A DNA stretch of 64,000 nucleotides from contig NZ_JAGGKR010000001.1 in assembly GCF_017873855.1 (NCBI RefSeq), positions 1,927,529 to 1,991,528 on the forward strand, given 5' to 3'. A model generated the notes under the pieces. The model did no database searches and was not told the origin of the DNA. It saw nothing but the letters and a program-made list of their open reading frames with translations. Positions within the stretch are counted from its first letter, which is position 1, and each line of letters begins with the position of its first letter. Below, in pieces: positions 43,645-51,776 of this stretch. This DNA is from Methanolinea mesophila. Its GTDB lineage: Archaea > Halobacteriota > Methanomicrobia > Methanomicrobiales > Methanospirillaceae. Both the position numbers and the translations under genes were made by a program.

Positions 43645-45621
43645 TTATCCCGGGTAGTTGGGCCAGTTTACCTGGATTGCCTGGATCTTCCCGTATTGTG
43701 CGTCGGTGTTTCGGGGATCCAGTTCGAGTGCCCGGTCGAACGAACTGATCGCCTCGCTGATATCGCCGAGTTTGATCAACGCGAAGCCTCTGTTGGCCCA
43801 AGCCATGGAGATATTCGGGTTGATCGCGATCAGTGCGTCGTATGACTCGAGCGCTTCTTCGAACATGTCATTCCTGTAGAGTGCGATCCCCTTATACATG
43901 TAGGCCTCCGTATTATCCGGGTCGATGGCAAGCACCCTGTCATACATCTGGATCGCGGGGAGATATCCTCCCTGGTTCATCCGCTCGTAGGCGAGGTCGA
44001 GCATCGCCACCGTGTTGTCAGGCTGAATATCGAGGACCTTCTGGTAGAGACGGATGGCATCGGAATAGTCCCCGAGCCGGTCGAACGCGTACGCGGTATT
44101 CATCAGTGCGGGAATGTTTTCCGGGTCGTCTCTGAGTACTTTATCGTAAATACGGGTGGTCTCCTCTCCTCTTCCGAGACTGTGGTACGCCGAGACTTCA
44201 TAGGACCACGCGACGGAGTTGGAGGGGTCCAGTTCCAGGGCCTTATTATATGCGGCAATGGCATCCAGGTATTTTCCCATGTTATGGAGTGCGAGTCCTT
44301 TGGATATCCAGAGCGTAGTAAAGCGCGGGTTCATCGTGAGCGCGGCATCGTAGGCATCTGCTGCCTCCTGATACCTTCCGAGTGCATTAAGGGCGTTTCC
44401 TTTCGCCATCAGGGCCATGAAGCTTCCGGGGTCCAGTTCCAGCGCTTTTCCGGCGGCTTCCAGTGCGTCGCTGCTGCGTCCCACGTTCACCAGGGAATTC
44501 GCCTTGTAGGCATAGGCGACAGAAATGTCAGGGTCGAGGGCGAGTGCTTTGTCGTACGAGACAAGGGCGTTCTTGTCCTGACCCATGCTGGCCTGGGCGT
44601 AGCCCATATTTGTCCATGCCACCGAATTCTCCGGGTCAAGCGCGAGGGATGCATTGTACGCTTCGATCGCCTCGCTGTAACGACCCATGCTGTTAAGCGC
44701 AAACCCTTTATTATTCCATGCCACCGAATTCTCCGGGTCGACCTCCAGTGCCCGTTCACTTGCGTCCAGACCGTCGGAATACCTGCCGAGGTTGTTCAAC
44801 GCGTAGCCCTTGTACGCCCATGCAGAAGCGTCGCCAGGGTTCTGGTCGTTTATCCTCTGATATACCTGGATTGCTTCCGTGTATCGTCCCATGCTGTTGA
44901 GCACGATACCCTCACTGGAGAGCAGAACGGTGCTGTTCGGGGAGATATTGAGTGCGTACTGATATGCCTGCAGGGCCTCGTTGTATTGCCCGAAAGCCTT
45001 GTAAAGGTCCCCGATCTTCTTCGCGGCACTGGTCTGTTCCGGATTTATGGCTATAGCGTTCTTATACGCGGCCAGCGCTTCGTTATATTGTCCCATCTGG
45101 AGGAGGAGGTCGCCCTTGTTCTCTGCGGCTATCGCAAGTTTCGGGTCAACCTCAATGGCCGTATCGAAGGCATCGAGCGCCTTCTGATAATCTCCCATCC
45201 TAGCGTACACAATGGCCTTGTACCCCCAGGCGACACCGAGCGAAGGGTCTATGGACAGGGCCTTGTCGTAGGCGTCAAGGGCGTCCTGGTATCTTTCAAG
45301 AGTCTGAAGCGAGTTGCCCTTGTACCCCCAGACGATCGCAAGGTTCGGATCCAGCGCAAGGGCATGGTCGAACGATTCGATCGCTTCGGTGTTCCGCCCG
45401 AGGTTCTGGAGTGCCATACCTCTCCGGGTCCACGCAAGTGCATTTCCCGGTTCTGATTTTACAATCGAATCGTATATCTCGAGTGATTCGTTATATTTTC
45501 CCGAGGCCTCGAGCTGTTTCCCCGCGTCAAGGGATGATTCCGACTGATTGGTCAGGCAGCCAGCGGAAAATATCACTGCGAGGAGGGATACGATCACGAT
45601 GGCGGGGAATATTTTCATCAT
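43645..45621 (-). CDS. Large TPR-repeat lipoprotein
   Basis: 658 residues. Signal with lipobox IFSAGC (Cys22), then about 18 tandem 34-residue tetratricopeptide repeats running to the end (recurring NALGRYQEAADAYDAALTMNP-like pattern; W/Y at position 4, A at 8, Y at 11, P at 32). It is a helical scaffold anchored outside the membrane. A strong TATA (aggtttatatg) lies about 30 bases upstream, giving a near-leaderless transcript. It is divergent from the secreted-protein family cluster, whose members it might bind; that is conjecture. Confidence 0.9.
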   Translation of the reverse strand: MMKIFPAIVIVSLLAVIFSAGCLTNQSESSLDAGKQLEASGKYNESLEIYDSIVKSEPGNALAWTRRGMALQNLGRNTEAIESFDHALALDPNLAIVWGYKGNSLQTLERYQDALDAYDKALSIDPSLGVAWGYKAIVYARMGDYQKALDAFDTAIEVDPKLAIAAENKGDLLLQMGQYNEALAAYKNAIAINPEQTSAAKKIGDLYKAFGQYNEALQAYQYALNISPNSTVLLSSEGIVLNSMGRYTEAIQVYQRINDQNPGDASAWAYKGYALNNLGRYSDGLDASERALEVDPENSVAWNNKGFALNSMGRYSEAIEAYNASLALDPENSVAWTNMGYAQASMGQDKNALVSYDKALALDPDISVAYAYKANSLVNVGRSSDALEAAGKALELDPGSFMALMAKGNALNALGRYQEAADAYDAALTMNPRFTTLWISKGLALHNMGKYLDAIAAYNKALELDPSNSVAWSYEVSAYHSLGRGEETTRIYDKVLRDDPENIPALMNTAYAFDRLGDYSDAIRLYQKVLDIQPDNTVAMLDLAYERMNQGGYLPAIQMYDRVLAIDPDNTEAYMYKGIALYRNDMFEEALESYDALIAINPNISMAWANRGFALIKLGDISEAISSFDRALELDPRNTDAQYGKIQAIQVNWPNYPG

Positions 45622-45744: not shown

Positions 45745-46128
45745 ATGATATCAATCAGGACCGCAGGAGCAATTGCGATGGTGCTGGTATTTTTAACCGC
45801 CATGGCAATGCCGGTCTCCGCGGCAGCAGATTTCAGCAATCTGATCAATTCAGGGAGCTCGATGAATGGAAACATAGGCTCCCTGGCGACCAGCCTGTCG
45901 TCAACCATGACCGGACAGCCAAGCGTGAACTATAATGTCGGGCTCCAGGGGATAGGAAATACTCCGGCTCAGGGGAGCATTTCGGCATATGCCAGTGCGA
46001 ATCTTATGGAAGGAAGATCGGACGGAAGCCTCGCGCAACAGATTCTCTATAGCCAGAGATCCACGGCGAGCGGAGAAATCTCCCTGTTCAGCTTCTCTTT
46101 CAGCTATCTGAGCAAATTAAACTCTTAA
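45745..46128 (+). CDS. Short secreted member (A) of the repeated family
   Basis: 127 residues. Signal peptide 1-26 (AMPVSA/A), a Ser/Asn/Gly-rich stretch, then the family C-terminal module: NYNVGLQGIGNTPAQGSIS, AYASANLMEGR, LYSQRSTASGEISLF. The module matches the ends of the four larger neighbours, but the N-terminal 'SYTEDTIADQG' domain is absent, so this is a single-module member. A perfect AAAAGGAGG ribosome-binding site precedes the ATG, and a TATA (aaaatatttatcc) lies about 45 bases upstream. Confidence 0.8.
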   Translation: MISIRTAGAIAMVLVFLTAMAMPVSAAADFSNLINSGSSMNGNIGSLATSLSSTMTGQPSVNYNVGLQGIGNTPAQGSISAYASANLMEGRSDGSLAQQILYSQRSTASGEISLFSFSFSYLSKLNS

Positions 46129-46223
46129 AATTAATTTTTCCATCCGTTTTTTTGTCAGACATTTTTTTTATACGAATTGGTCATTTAATCCCCTGTTAGG
46201 TAAAACGGAGACCAATTCAAGGG

Positions 46224-46283
46224 AAACTATAAATACTACCACGTAATTATCATTATTTTGATCCGATTCGAAAAGTCGATCAA
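46224..46283 (+). promoter_or_regulatory. Promoter and leader stem-loop of member B
   Basis: The TATA aactataaatac (46227-46238) sets transcription near 46257. An inverted repeat starts there: TTGAT (46258-46262) with ATCAA (46279-46283), a bulged C, then CGA (46264-46266) with TCG (46276-46278). It runs straight into the AAGGTGG ribosome-binding site. The layout (5'-end hairpin, then ribosome-binding site) is the same as in the minus-strand members, although the sequence differs. Confidence 0.5.
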
Positions 46284-46292
46284 GGTGGCAAA

Positions 46293-47111
46293 ATGAAGAC
46301 GAGACTGTTATTACTACTGGTCATCCCGATGCTGATGATCGTATGTGTCACTCCTGCTCTCGGAGCCAGGACAATCCCTGCGAGTAATGAGACCAACCAG
46401 TTGACGGTGGTCACCTCGGCAGCGGCGATTGGTTCCGTGACTGCACACACCACTATTGTCTACACCCAGGGGAACGGAAACCTTACGGACAACCCGCCCC
46501 TCGAATCCGGTGAAGGCCAATCTACTATTGCCTACACTGAGGATACCTTGGCGGTAAACGGTGCGGTGACCTATGATAAGTACACCAACCTCGATACCGG
46601 CAACCAGGGTCCCAACGGAGATAACCTGGAGACCGAGAGGATCATAGAATACTCCGCGGAAGGCGATGGCCAGACCGGAGGCCGTATGCTCTCGAGTGAA
46701 GAGATATTGGTTGACACGGCCGCTACCGGAACCATCGACAGTGCGGGATGCTGTCCGTGGGGCTCTGGTCAGGACCAGGTATTGCCAGCTAACAATGATA
46801 TCGTGGTGGCAGGCTCTACAATGGACGTGACCGAGGCATCGGTGGCATCCACATCCGGGGCAAGGACTACCTCTTCATCGGTCGACACACCTGTGGAGCT
46901 CACCTATAGCGTGAACATCCAGGGTATTAACCAGACACCGGGCGACATGAATGAGGCGGCCCAGGGAAGTGCGACGGCCTACGTGAGCGCCAACCTCCAG
47001 GAAGGGCTCGGCAACGAGACTGCGAAGGGTACTGATGTCCAGTACAGTGACGTGACCTCCGCAAGCGGCCTGTTCGACCTGGCAAAGGAAGTCTCCTATA
47101 CTTCAGGGTAA
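46293..47111 (+). CDS. Secreted family member B
   Basis: 272 residues. Signal peptide to about residue 24 (TPALG/A). The family blocks occur in order: VVTSAAAIGSVT, IAYTEDTLAVNGAVTY, LDTGNQ...IIEYSAEGDG..GGRMLSSEEILVD, SAGCCPWGSG, STMDVTEASVAST, and the C-terminal LTYSVNIQGINQTP..AAQGSATAYVSANLQEGL..YSDVTSASGLFDL. It is the most divergent full-length copy. It has adjacent Cys residues (CC) where C, D and E have a C-x13-C pair. Function unknown. Confidence 0.85.
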   Translation: MKTRLLLLLVIPMLMIVCVTPALGARTIPASNETNQLTVVTSAAAIGSVTAHTTIVYTQGNGNLTDNPPLESGEGQSTIAYTEDTLAVNGAVTYDKYTNLDTGNQGPNGDNLETERIIEYSAEGDGQTGGRMLSSEEILVDTAATGTIDSAGCCPWGSGQDQVLPANNDIVVAGSTMDVTEASVASTSGARTTSSSVDTPVELTYSVNIQGINQTPGDMNEAAQGSATAYVSANLQEGLGNETAKGTDVQYSDVTSASGLFDLAKEVSYTSG

Positions 47112-47361
47112 TTTTAAACCCACACCTCTTTTCTTTAAAATTTCCACTGATTCACAGGTTGAACCGCCTGGTTCTCCCGCGGGATATCGTTCCGACTCCT
47201 TCCCGGGAGTTTTATTCCACGGTCTTCAAGGGTATATCATCGTAAATGCGGCGCTCATATGGTGAATTCTTTGAAAAAATATTTCATCCCGACTGTTTTA
47301 TGACGTCCATTTTCCCCTCTGGGCATTCTTTTGAGGTTCCCCGGCTCTGCAGCAGCCCCCG

Positions 47362-48024
47362 GTGCGATATCTCTTTAGCATGGTTTCAAGATGGGTGTCA
47401 ATGCCATGGTGTGTTCCGGATTTTGTAGATCTATGGAGCATATTTTATCGATATCAGCTGAAAATCTTTCCGGAAACACGAGCGTTCAGGACTAACCTTG
47501 TCGGGACGCGAAAGCGGCGGGTATGCCGCCCCTTACGCGTCATTTACGGAATGATTCGTCGCCTTCATTTGTCCGGGGAGAGGCCTTGGAATATATGTAC
47601 CTGCAATAAGGTGCTCAAGGAATTCAACAGGGATTCTAACCCGGGCGAAGTCCATCTCACCGAATTTGATGAGTTGTTATCCGAGACATTACCTTTCAGG
47701 ATTTACTGTCGGGCCTATTGTGAGAATTCTTATGAACGGGAAATCTGGCAAATACCTTCTCCATCGACCTGCCAGCATATTGAATGGAATATAATCCGTT
47801 CCCCATACTTTTATCCGGAAGGGACATTCCGGCATATTTGCCGGATTCCGGGCGCTTTCTCCACCAGGGATCTGCCTCCCGAAGGTTTTTCTGTTTGTCA
47901 TATATTTATCATTTCATATAATCATGAACATTCACGATTCGTACCGGGTTTTAATTGCCTGAGAAAAGAGGATACCGTGGTTATAGGATGTCCAGGGGAG
48001 TTTTCCGCCATCTGGAAATCGTAA
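47362..48024 (+). CDS. Orphan open frame, doubtful gene
   Basis: 220 codons without a stop, longer than chance would readily give in 1.15 kb. The product is rich in Cys, Arg, Phe and Tyr (FRIYCRAYCENSYEREIW), has no signal peptide, no recognisable domain and no clear ribosome-binding site, and its composition is unlike its neighbours. It is either an orphan foreign gene or a chance frame. Confidence 0.25.
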   Translation: MRYLFSMVSRWVSMPWCVPDFVDLWSIFYRYQLKIFPETRAFRTNLVGTRKRRVCRPLRVIYGMIRRLHLSGERPWNICTCNKVLKEFNRDSNPGEVHLTEFDELLSETLPFRIYCRAYCENSYEREIWQIPSPSTCQHIEWNIIRSPYFYPEGTFRHICRIPGAFSTRDLPPEGFSVCHIFIISYNHEHSRFVPGFNCLRKEDTVVIGCPGEFSAIWKS

Positions 48025-48221
48025 TTCTCACTTTTTTCCAGGGTCCCCGGGGGGAAAGTGATCCTGAAGAAGTTCTCCACTGACGGATAATCCATCAGAA
48101 ATTTTCCATTATTCTTTACACCGGGATATTTTTCTTGGGCAGTACCCTGAAAATTACATCCACCGGGCAACCGGTGCAATGACTCAAAAATATACTCAAA
48201 AGTACGCGTCTGCCAAGAAAA

Positions 48222-48249
48222 GGGATGGTTGAGGAGAAACCTCAATCCC
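48222..48249 (-). terminator. Terminator-like hairpin after member C
   Basis: An inverted repeat TTGAGG/CCTCAA (48229-48234 with 48240-48245), extended by GGGA/TCCC around a 3-base bulge, lies just past the stop of member C on the minus strand and is followed by TTTTC. Probably a transcription end or a 3' stabilising hairpin. Confidence 0.45.
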
Positions 48250-48264
48250 CTTTATCCTGAGACT

Positions 48265-49065
48265 TCAGAACCGGCGGAGGCCGGACTGGTATGCAATTAC
48301 CTTCTGGAACAGGGTGATGTCGCCTGCTGCAGTGGACATCTCGGAGTAGGTCAGGTCTTCTGCCTTCGCTCCGTCGTCGGTGCGGGCCTCCTGGATGTGC
48401 GCATTGATGTACGCGTCAGCGGATCCCATTGCGGGGACGTCGCCGAAGCCGGTCATCTTGATCGCATAGTCGACTTCAACAGCCGGGTCGCTGGACTTCA
48501 TGACATGGCGCTCGTCTGCTGCGGTGGTGAGGGACGCAAGGGTCACGTCAACGTCGCTGCCGACCTCGATGATGTTACAGAACGGCGGCATTTCCTCGGT
48601 CACACCTACTGCGAACGGGCAGATGAATCCTGTTGCTACATCCTTTCCTTCGGCTGCACCGTCAAGGACCATGTTCTCGGAAGAGAGCATGCGGCCGGTG
48701 TCGAGGCCGATGAACTCGACGACCTTTCCGGTCTCGAAGTTATAGGTGCCTGCGACCATGTTCGCGGTGTCAAGGGACTGTCCCTTTACATAGCTGACCA
48801 GGCCCTGGTCCGCAATGGTGTCCTCGGTATAGGACATGACGTAGTAGATCTCGTCATCCCCGAGCGGCGGAACAGTGAGGTCCAAGTATGCAAGCGACCA
48901 TACGATGGTGTCGGTCTCGGTAACGGTTCCCAGTGCTTCGATGTTGGTTGCCGTCACAATTCCCTGGGTCTCAGGTACCTGGTTGACCCCGGTATCGGCC
49001 ATGGCCATACCGGTGAATGCAACGAGCATGGCCAGTGCAATGACCATGATTGTGAGTTTCTTCAT
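48265..49065 (-). CDS. Secreted family member C
   Basis: 266 residues. Signal peptide 1-23 (TGMAMA/D). Blocks: VPETQGIVTATNIEALGTVTETDTIVW, VMSYTEDTIADQGLVSYVKGQSLDT, GKVVEFIGLDTGRMLSSENMVLDG, Cys pair in FICPFAVGVTEEMPPFC (C-x13-C, likely a disulfide outside the cell), EVGSDVDVTLASLTTAADERHV, and the C-terminal GFGDVPAMGSADAYINAHIQEAR...LTYSEMSTAAGDITLFQ. There is no membrane anchor, so it is probably released or part of the envelope. It is closely related to D and E. Confidence 0.88.
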   Translation of the reverse strand: MKKLTIMVIALAMLVAFTGMAMADTGVNQVPETQGIVTATNIEALGTVTETDTIVWSLAYLDLTVPPLGDDEIYYVMSYTEDTIADQGLVSYVKGQSLDTANMVAGTYNFETGKVVEFIGLDTGRMLSSENMVLDGAAEGKDVATGFICPFAVGVTEEMPPFCNIIEVGSDVDVTLASLTTAADERHVMKSSDPAVEVDYAIKMTGFGDVPAMGSADAYINAHIQEARTDDGAKAEDLTYSEMSTAAGDITLFQKVIAYQSGLRRF

Positions 49066-49083
49066 TTAGTTCCTCCTACAGTT

Positions 49084-49137
49084 ATGCTGATACTCTCAGC
49101 ATCAAACCAGTTTTTTAGTTGCACGATGTTAATAAAC
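49084..49137 (-). promoter_or_regulatory. Promoter and conserved leader stem-loop of member C
   Basis: On the minus strand: TATA gtttattaac (49138-49129), about 30 bases, then stem-loop ATGCTGA-GAGTA-TCAGCAT (49102-49084), then GGAGGA and the ATG at 49065. Transcription should begin near 49107, so the stem-loop forms the 5' end of the mRNA. The same arrangement is found before members D and E. Confidence 0.75.
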
Positions 49138-49450
49138 TTTCCCTCGAATTGACCACGTATCCAGCCATTTTTACCGGCGAGATAGCTCCGTCAACCGTGG
49201 ACACGGATGATCAAACCGGGAAAACGTTCGATTAACCCCGGGATCTCATGACCGGACGGACCCTGCAGGCAACGCAGGATCTGCCCTGTTACGAGACCAT
49301 CAGAACAAGATTCCGAATGAATCCGGATAATCCGGAGAAAGAAGATCCGGACTGATAAGATTCACTGTAGTGCACACTTCCAGAAATCAGCGCCAGAAAT
49401 CGCAATGGCATGAGGATTATTACAATCCGAAAACAGAATAAAATTTAAAG
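49138..49450. other. Intergenic region, no gene seen
   Basis: About 310 bases between the member C promoter and the member D terminator. No open frame of note, no repeats recognised. Confidence 0.5.
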
Positions 49451-49470
49451 GGTTTGGGTTTCCCCAAACC
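49451..49470 (-). terminator. Terminator-like hairpin after member D
   Basis: GGTTTGGG (49451-49458) pairs with CCCAAACC (49463-49470) around a 4-base loop. On the minus strand it is followed by TTTAAATTTTATTC, an intrinsic-terminator-like arrangement just after the stop of D. The same hairpin is found after member E. Confidence 0.6.
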
Positions 49471-49485
49471 GGTCCATCTGAGACC

Positions 49486-50286
49486 TTAGTACCGGCGGAG
49501 GCCGGACTGGTAGGTGATTGCCTTCTGGAACAGGGTGATGTCGCCTGCTGCAGTGGACATCTCAGAGTAGACTACATCCTCAGCCTTGCCACCGGTTGCA
49601 GTGCGGGCTTCCTGGATGTGCGCATTGATGTACGCGTCAGCGGATCCCATTGCGGGGATGTCGCCGAAGCCGGTCATCTTGATTGCGTAGTCGACTGCGA
49701 CTGCGGGGTCACCGGAGGCCATGACATGGCGCTCGTCTGCTGCGGTGGTGAGGGACGCAAGGGTCACGTCAACATCGCTGCCGACCTCGATGATGTTGCA
49801 GAACGGCGGGATAGTCTCGGTCACGGCGGATGCGAACGGACAGATGTAGGTAGTAGCGGTGGTCTGGCCGTTGCCTGCACCGTCGAGGACCATGTTCTCG
49901 GAAGAGATCATGCGACCGGTGTCAAGACCGACGAACTCGACGACCTTGCCGGTGTCGAAGTTGAAGGTGCCTGCGACCTTGTTCGCGGTGTCAAGGGACT
50001 GTCCCTTGGCGTAGCTGACCAGGCCCTGGTCTGCAATGGTGCTCTCGGTGTAGGACATGACATACATCTTGTCACCTGCATCGAGCGGCGGAACGGCGAG
50101 GTTGGGGAATCCCAGCTGCCATACGACGCTGTCGGTCTCGGTGACGGTTCCCACTGCCTGGACGGCGGTGGAGGTAACGATGCCCTGGGTCTCAGGGACT
50201 GCATTGATTCCGGGGTCTGCCATCGCAACTCCGGTGAGCGCGAAGAGCATGGCCACGGCAATGACCATAAGTCCGAATTTCTTCAT
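49486..50286 (-). CDS. Secreted family member D
   Basis: 266 residues with all family blocks and the same signal peptide type (TGVAMA/D). It is very close to E along most of the length (identical VPETQGIVTSTAVQAVGTVTETDSVVWQLG in both) and to C in the C-terminal half. Cys pair in YICPFASAVTETIPPFC. Ends YQSGLRRY. The high identity at DNA level between D and E indicates recent duplication or gene conversion. Confidence 0.88.
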   Translation of the reverse strand: MKKFGLMVIAVAMLFALTGVAMADPGINAVPETQGIVTSTAVQAVGTVTETDSVVWQLGFPNLAVPPLDAGDKMYVMSYTESTIADQGLVSYAKGQSLDTANKVAGTFNFDTGKVVEFVGLDTGRMISSENMVLDGAGNGQTTATTYICPFASAVTETIPPFCNIIEVGSDVDVTLASLTTAADERHVMASGDPAVAVDYAIKMTGFGDIPAMGSADAYINAHIQEARTATGGKAEDVVYSEMSTAAGDITLFQKAITYQSGLRRY

Positions 50287-50305
50287 TTAATATCCTCCTA
50301 CAGTT

Positions 50306-50358
50306 ATGCTGATACTCTCAGCATCAACCATAAAATTCAATCTGGTTCCTTAATAACC
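50306..50358 (-). promoter_or_regulatory. Promoter and conserved leader stem-loop of member D
   Basis: TATA ggttattaag (minus strand, 50358-50349), then about 25 bases, then stem-loop ATGCTGA-GAGTA-TCAGCAT (50324-50306), CTGTAGGAGGA ribosome-binding site and the ATG at 50286. The stem-loop is identical to that of member C although the spacer to the TATA differs in sequence, which points to selection on the hairpin. Confidence 0.75.
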
Positions 50359-50639
50359 TTTCTTTTTCTTCTCTGAATTTCGAGGTTTTTATGCGATTAC
50401 AAACCCATTTTGAATTTATTATAATAAATAAAACGCCTGGCAACATCTGAAATTTTCCCAGGTCCGGAAACAATCAAAGGAGCGCCCGTAGGCATTTGCC
50501 GCCAAAGACCGCGGGGACTGTCATCCTCTGTGCCGATATGGATGATTTTGGGCTACATGTGGAATAATGGTTGATTTTTCGGGTGCGAATGAACAGGTGT
50601 GCCTGGTTGCAGCTGCCTGCATCTTGAGCGGTTGAGAAC
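50359..50639. other. Intergenic region upstream of member D
   Basis: About 280 bases. The first 90 are AT-rich; the rest has normal GC. No gene is supported. The adjoining 50640-50775 is a decayed family copy, so part of this region may be its eroded 5' or 3' surroundings. Confidence 0.4.
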
Positions 50640-50775
50640 CCCACACCGCCGGTGCAAGGCGGACGAACTCAACGACATCCGCTAGTGAAGGGAAGGTGTC
50701 AGCGACCTTGTTCGCGGTGTCACGGGATTGCCTCTTGGCGTAACTGACCTGGCCCTGGTCCGTAATAGTGAATTC
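50640..50775 (-). pseudogene. Decayed sixth copy of the secreted family
   Basis: Read on the minus strand the segment translates as TITDQGQVSYAKRQSRDTAN then KVADTFPSLADVVEFVRL. It aligns in one frame with TIADQGLVSYAKGQSLDTAN / KVAGTFNFDTGKVVEFVGL of member D. No start, signal peptide or C-terminal module remains. It is a clear relic of a sixth gene between D and E. Confidence 0.85.
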
Positions 50776-50866
50776 TCAAACTTAAGCCAAACCGCGTTCT
50801 GATGGCCCGGAAAAGATACCAAAAAACACCTGATGGCCTCTGAAAAACAAAATCGATAAAAAATTG

Positions 50867-50886
50867 GGTTTGGGTTTCCCCAAACC
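50867..50886 (-). terminator. Terminator-like hairpin after member E
   Basis: GGTTTGGG (50867-50874) with CCCAAACC (50879-50886), loop TTTC, identical to the hairpin after member D, followed on the minus strand by AATTTTTTATCG. Lies 16 bases past the stop of E. Confidence 0.6.
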
Positions 50887-50902
50887 AGTCTTATCTGAGA
50901 CC

Positions 50903-51706
50903 TTAGTACCGGCGGAGGCCGGACTGGTAGTCGATTGCCTTCTGGAACAGGGTGATGTCGCCTGCTGCAGTGGAGGTCTCGGAGTATGCTACATCCTCAG
51001 CCTTGCCACCGTCGCCGGTGCGTGCTTCCTGGATGTGTGCATCGATGTACGCGGTTGCGGATCCCATCGCGGGGATGTCGCCGAAGCCGGTCATCTTGAT
51101 GTCGTAGCCGACTGCAACACCCGGGTCGCCGGAGGCCATGACATGGCGTTCGTCAGCGGCGGTGGTCAGGGATGCAAGGGTTACATCGACATCGCTGCCG
51201 ACCTGGATGATGTTGCAGAACGGCGGGATGGTGTCGGTGGTGGCGGATGCGAACGGACAGATGTAGGTAGTAGCGGTGTCCTGACCGTTGCCTGCACCGT
51301 CGAGGACCATGTTCTCGGAAGAGAGCATGCGGCCGGTGTCGAGGCCTACGAACTCAACGACCTTCTGGGTTGCGAAGTTGTTGGTGCCTGCGACCTTGTT
51401 TGCGGTGTCAAGGGACTGTCCCTTGGCGTAGCTGACCAGGCCCTGGTCTGCAATGGTGTTCTCGGTGTAGGACATGACGTAGTACTTGCCGCCTTCAGGG
51501 TCGAGCGGGGGTACTGCAGCGTTGGGGTATCCCAGCTGCCATACAACACTGTCGGTCTCGGTTACGGTTCCCACTGCCTGGACGGCGGTGGAGGTGACGA
51601 TACCCTGGGTCTCAGGGACTGCATTGATCCCGGGGTCTGCCATTGCCATTCCAGTGAATGCAACGAGCATTGCCAGGGCAATTGCCACGAATGCGAATTT
51701 CTTCAT
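50903..51706 (-). CDS. Secreted family member E
   Basis: 267 residues, signal peptide TGMAMA/D, all blocks present, Cys pair in YICPFASATTDTIPPFC. Differences from D are concentrated in the segment after WQLG (YPNAAVPPLDPEGGKYYV) and in AVGYDIKM. Ends YQSGLRRY. Probably secreted in quantity: consensus ribosome-binding site, conserved stem-loop leader and terminator hairpin. Confidence 0.88.
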   Translation of the reverse strand: MKKFAFVAIALAMLVAFTGMAMADPGINAVPETQGIVTSTAVQAVGTVTETDSVVWQLGYPNAAVPPLDPEGGKYYVMSYTENTIADQGLVSYAKGQSLDTANKVAGTNNFATQKVVEFVGLDTGRMLSSENMVLDGAGNGQDTATTYICPFASATTDTIPPFCNIIQVGSDVDVTLASLTTAADERHVMASGDPGVAVGYDIKMTGFGDIPAMGSATAYIDAHIQEARTGDGGKAEDVAYSETSTAAGDITLFQKAIDYQSGLRRY

Positions 51707-51724
51707 ATTGTTCCTCCTACATTT

Positions 51725-51776
51725 ATGCTGATACCCTCAGCATCAACCAATTTGTTGGAGACAATCGGTTATCAAC
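51725..51776 (-). promoter_or_regulatory. Promoter and conserved leader stem-loop of member E
   Basis: TATA gttgataacc (minus strand, about 51776-51767), then about 25 bases, then stem-loop ATGCTGA-GGGTA-TCAGCAT (51743-51725), AGGAGGA ribosome-binding site and the ATG at 51706. The only change in the hairpin relative to C and D is one loop base; both stem arms are kept. Confidence 0.75.

Follow-up and report, generated by a model that had tools for sequence, protein, structure and literature searches.

Tandem genes for capless SH/MspA-family proteins in Methanolinea mesophila and the leader hairpin that precedes them

The SH/MspA family forms the amyloid-like sheath, a tube, around some methane-producing archaea. 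SH/MspA of Methanospirillum hungatei is secreted and assembles by stacking into rings that surround the cell; its core consists of six beta-arches, which make up two six-stranded sheets (PMC6242892, PMC10593813). The gene Mhun_2271 of strain JF-1 (WP_011449234.1) has been shown biochemically to make the sheath of M. hungatei, in which the cap domain joins the hoops, and a single SH gene dominates transcription in this organism (PMC11576556). According to the 2018 paper MspA has one cysteine, C271 (PMC6242892); two, C257 and C271, are implied by the 2023 paper (PMC10593813) and are present in the sequence. Coordinates of SH have apparently not been deposited, as the data statement names EM maps only. 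In the survey of Medvedeva et al. 2024 (PMC11576556), SH families consist of proteins of 150–350 aa (without Ig-like domains) with a signal peptide, multi-copy and clustered, with caps that are diverse or absent, and a cap is not needed for the definition, capless SH proteins having been reported there. Viral SH-like genes have also been reported.

The window analysed here is a stretch of 64,000 nucleotides from M. mesophila, and genes within it are referred to by their lower coordinate (Table 1). All five ORFs of the island were found, each with a hydrophobic signal-like N-terminal segment and no membrane segment further on, which confirmed the first-pass annotation of four full-length copies and one short copy, all with signal peptides. 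The three minus-strand copies (48265, 49486 and 50903, hereafter the array) were 76–88% identical to one another; the 46293 copy was about 35% identical to them, and the 45745 copy could be aligned to their C-terminal part only. Between the 49486 and 50903 genes a stop-containing remnant was detected by blastn, its DNA being 78–81% identical to that of the complete array genes. A profile built from the island proteins recovered all five of them plus 22 others from this genome of 2.66 Mb in two contigs; the resulting 27 members, at about 15 places, were counted by first searching the genome for relatives and then running the profile over the surrounding regions. The relatedness proposed at first pass was thus upheld and the count of five in one island was not; the island is a small visible portion of a genome-wide family expansion. 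By comparison, M. hungatei has one copy at the locus and seven members, and the survey described a single SH cluster per Methanomicrobiales genome (PMC11576556). The alignment of all 27 members was too diverse for the scan of the genome collection, for which a closer subset was used.

Table 1. Features of the SH island and its neighbour (positions in the window).
Feature	Position	Strand	Basis
TPR-repeat lipoprotein, neighbour of SH islands in three genera	43645..45621	-	Pfam TPR; synteny
Short secreted SH-like protein, C-terminal part of core only, 127 aa	45745..46128	+	alignment, profile
Divergent SH protein, older separate lineage, 272 aa	46293..47111	+	alignment, profile, synteny, tree
Main-type SH sheath protein without cap, 266 aa	48265..49065	-	ORF, alignment, profile, hhalign, codon adaptation
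SH leader of 48265 gene: hairpin (49084-49104), RBS, gene start	49063..49107	-	model R1 E 5.3e-17; pattern
8-bp hairpin with GAAA loop just after 49486 gene	49451..49470	-	read from sequence; fold -13.7 kcal/mol
Main-type SH sheath protein without cap, 266 aa	49486..50286	-	ORF, alignment, profile, codon adaptation
SH leader of 49486 gene: hairpin 50306-50326	50284..50329	-	model R1 E 3.9e-15; pattern
Remnant (pseudogene) of another SH gene of the main type	about 50648..50777	-	blastn; internal stop
Same kind of 3' hairpin after 50903 gene	50867..50886	-	read from sequence
Main-type SH sheath protein without cap, 267 aa; AlphaFold model with six beta-arches	50903..51706	-	ORF, alignment, AlphaFold, hhalign, codon adaptation
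SH leader of 50903 gene: hairpin 51725-51745	51704..51748	-	model R1 E 1.9e-16; pattern

The island proteins, previously annotated as of unknown function, belong to the known SH/MspA family, in which one member has been studied both biochemically and structurally (PMC6242892, PMC10593813, PMC11576556); the suggestion of an extracellular envelope matrix was right, and the proteins are specifically sheath (SH) proteins. The window-genome family profile was aligned over its full length with a Methanospirillum SH profile by hhalign (99.7%, E 9e-26), and matched the M. hungatei SH protein at E 5e-47. This reference protein has 377 aa with D43, C257, C271 and K363, as published for SH/MspA, and the seven SH members of the reference genome agree with the count of the 2018 paper. 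The four longer copies, with 266–272 aa and a signal peptide, lie within the SH length range of 150–350 aa; the 45745 copy, with 127 aa, lies below it. The five proteins gave no match above threshold in Pfam and NCBIfam, neither of which holds a model for the SH family, no meaningful match in PHROGs and, with the family profile, none in a PDB sequence search. In viral contigs neither an SH relative nor the leader described below was found, and the reported viral SH-like genes could therefore not be linked to this SH branch. The family is already known; to it the island adds new members, which lack a cap and are located at the ancestral main locus.

The 50903 protein was modelled by AlphaFold with the 27-member alignment (pLDDT 82), giving a signal helix and, after it, six long pairs of strands; by the secondary structure of the model, the arches comprise residues 35–59, 74–100, 111–139, 163–187, 198–228 and 235–261. 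M. hungatei SH, modelled likewise with weaker, low confidence (pLDDT 65), gave arches at 34–58, 182–206, 218–245, 270–295, 305–338 and 348–373, with the cap inserted between the first and the second. As judged by secondary structure, a signal peptide and a core of six beta-arches are common to both proteins; they differ at the cap position, where M. hungatei SH has about 120 residues and the 50903 protein about 14, which is why the latter is regarded as capless. A cysteine pair, expected in SH proteins to provide disulfides between rings, lies in the linker of arches 3 and 4 (C150 and C164), 14 residues apart as are C257 and C271. The cysteines of the 46293 copy differ, being an adjacent CC, and the linker cysteines are absent from the 45745 copy, which is too short for the whole six-arch core. 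Foldseek searches against the PDB and viral models returned no solved or viral counterpart; long-strand matches were discarded as meaningless, with TM-scores mostly near 0.1.

The position of the array is conserved. Leader-bearing SH genes in UBA467, in genera g10 and g17 and in M. hungatei adjoin the flanking genes of the window array, a putative methyltransferase gene next to the array (matched by N-terminal sequence and place) and, further out, a putative DHH gene (matched by blastp), the g17 stretch (G225) stopping short of the latter. By position, the array therefore corresponds to Mhun_2271. Since it is flanked by one set of housekeeping genes in several genera, the idea that the island derives from a provirus was rejected. 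A close likeness was found in Methanoregulaceae archaeon UBA467 (L032/L098/L201), which is unmentioned in the survey text (PMC11576556). It has three tandem copies, 70–72% identical to the 49486 protein of the window, with the same leader and the same neighbours (methyltransferase, NAC, DHH); no 45745- or 46293-type copies were seen alongside in the stretch examined.

The island is bordered by the TPR lipoprotein, as in g10 and g17 (36–45% identity); the stretches examined of M. hungatei and UBA467 did not show it. This recurrence lends some support to the proposal that it is a partner of the secreted proteins, the docking itself being putative. Counterparts of the 46293 copy were found in g10 (54–63%) and g17 (45%), and it grouped with a Methanospirillum pair in a quick tree (support 91, long branches); it belongs to a separate old SH lineage. 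Short secreted SH-like proteins (about 120–185 aa) were observed in other genera (L079, L088, L048, L049, L050 and L129), and short SH relatives are present in M. hungatei too. The 45745 copy may be one example of this recurring type, and it and the 46293 copy are probably minor or specialised components. In M. hungatei, an 840-aa membrane protein is encoded between two SH genes (L198, 9218-11740); its N-terminus may resemble that of an AglB-type oligosaccharyltransferase.

Codon adaptation was calculated as similarity in codon use to a set of eight genes for ribosomal proteins. Ranks one to three among the 27 SH genes went to the array genes, the 49486 gene being highest, and all three lay above 93–97% of the other genes tested; most SH paralogs were poorly adapted. 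The hairpin just after the 49486 gene is probably a transcript 3' end, and each array gene would be its own transcription unit. The individual regulation suggested at first pass is supported for the three minus-strand genes, each of which has its own leader hairpin.

The hairpin TGATGCTGAGRGTATCAGCAT lies upstream of each array gene and ends a few bases before the ribosome-binding site (RBS). Stems of 6 bp or more whose end lay no further than 12 nt from the RBS were found in 116 of 166 SH genes (ten genera), against 19 expected from shuffled sequences; among non-SH genes of the window genome such a stem was found in 18 of 92, not far above the chance rate, and the TGCTGA/TCAGCA form of the hairpin in none of the 92. 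When 33 leaders were aligned, pairing was seen in 99.1% of cells, and four of the seven pairs changed on both sides, which was reached by none of 500 shuffles; the covariation weighs more than the pairing figure, since the 33 leaders were selected for having hairpins. A covariance model gave six strong matches in the window genome, all of them SH leaders and the three array genes best, and in the M. hungatei genome exactly one (E 2.8e-17), directly before Mhun_2271. In three g11 genomes, which are without SH genes, no match was obtained. In three further genomes the strong matches checked all preceded SH genes, two of them just past the distance limit of the script but before listed SH ORFs, the sole exception lying at the end of a contig, which would truncate the gene. 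Weak matches in G140, which lacks SH genes (E 3.6e-4 and worse), were taken as chance, the three examined not being before SH genes. The leader marks SH genes in at least nine genera. Near-identical hairpin copies were also observed away from any SH gene at L093 ~1501-1521 (G000:C1:42535) and L097 ~1501-1521 (G000:C2:179099), the first followed by a T run and terminator-like. No matching family was found in Rfam, the SH survey text (PMC11576556) does not mention the leader, and it was not found in the papers searched; an SH-specific leader appears to be new.

In several SH paralogs of the window genome, none of the codons ATG, GTG and TTG is suitably spaced from the RBS, and ATT, ATC or ATA occurs at the expected start of the signal peptide, 6–10 nt after a good RBS; in two such ORFs there is no in-frame ATG, GTG or TTG up to the signal core. 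The genes concerned are L023, L021, L026 and L028 (window genome, C1) and L033 and L100 (UBA467). In the quick tree most paralogs with these starts share a clade, near which the UBA467 genes starting with ATT or ATC are placed. By one start-codon criterion, 5 of 27 SH genes were positive, compared with 4 of 149 other ORFs, in which the sites were mostly deep inside the ORF and look spurious. AUU, AUC and AUA starts in several SH paralogs are probable and appear to be new; gene callers would mis-start these paralogs.

A hairpin at the 5' end beside the RBS would most likely keep the mRNA stable and well translated, and would perhaps place the main sheath genes under common control. With somewhat less than even odds, the leader may be a new cis-acting RNA, dedicated to sheath genes in Methanomicrobiales, through which a common factor would set subunit amounts and beside which, in part of the family, weak AUU, AUC and AUA starts would keep minor subunits scarce. 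It is unlikely, yet worth weighing, that the leader is instead a DNA operator whose palindromic sequence binds a transcription factor: in its commonest form the leader is palindromic almost throughout and hardly differs between genera, and the two outlying copies in the window genome would fit such a site. Against an operator, paralogs retain the hairpin despite altered sequence, as the double changes at four of seven pairs indicate, and its spacing of a few bases from the RBS is kept, which suits an mRNA.

Codon adaptation, leader and locus together make the array genes the likely main subunits, and the three are therefore probably the main sheath subunits of the organism. The island is very probably the main SH locus of a sheathed methanogen, whose tandem genes encode secreted capless subunits; homology, fold pattern, conserved locus, leader and codon bias form the basis for this. 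The missing cap, the low confidence of the M. hungatei model and the want of a solved counterpart in the fold search count against it. Once the signal peptide had been removed, each array protein would fold into six beta-arches, and the subunits would assemble laterally into extracellular rings, with linkage by the cysteines of the arch 3 to arch 4 loop, following the M. hungatei model; polymerisation and a sheath in this organism are thus expected by analogy. There is a small chance that the SH fold has been reused for biofilm or partner attachment, the proteins forming a secreted amyloid matrix or adhesive fibre and not a closed tube. The scatter of 27 divergent paralogs would agree with this, as would the poor codon adaptation of most, by which many may not be bulk structural subunits; however, the three main copies occupy the position of the proven sheath gene and carry its leader, and no adhesin domains were found in Pfam or NCBIfam. 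S-layer proteins or phase-variable surface antigens would likewise be secreted, duplicated and clustered, but are very improbable given the homology to SH, the lack of S-layer or Ig-like matches above threshold in Pfam and NCBIfam, and main copies conserved in position with no sign of switching at the locus. The adhesion layer or variable antigen proposed at first pass is accordingly not supported, the main copies being positionally conserved across genera.

An island of apparently unknown genes is now placed in a studied system, and the likely main subunits among 27 paralogs are indicated. The leader is a sequence signature that in M. hungatei singles out the proven sheath gene genome-wide, and from this single match it follows that it can predict main sheath genes in uncultured archaea. 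It also raises the question of how a cell controls the making of large amounts of one structural protein.
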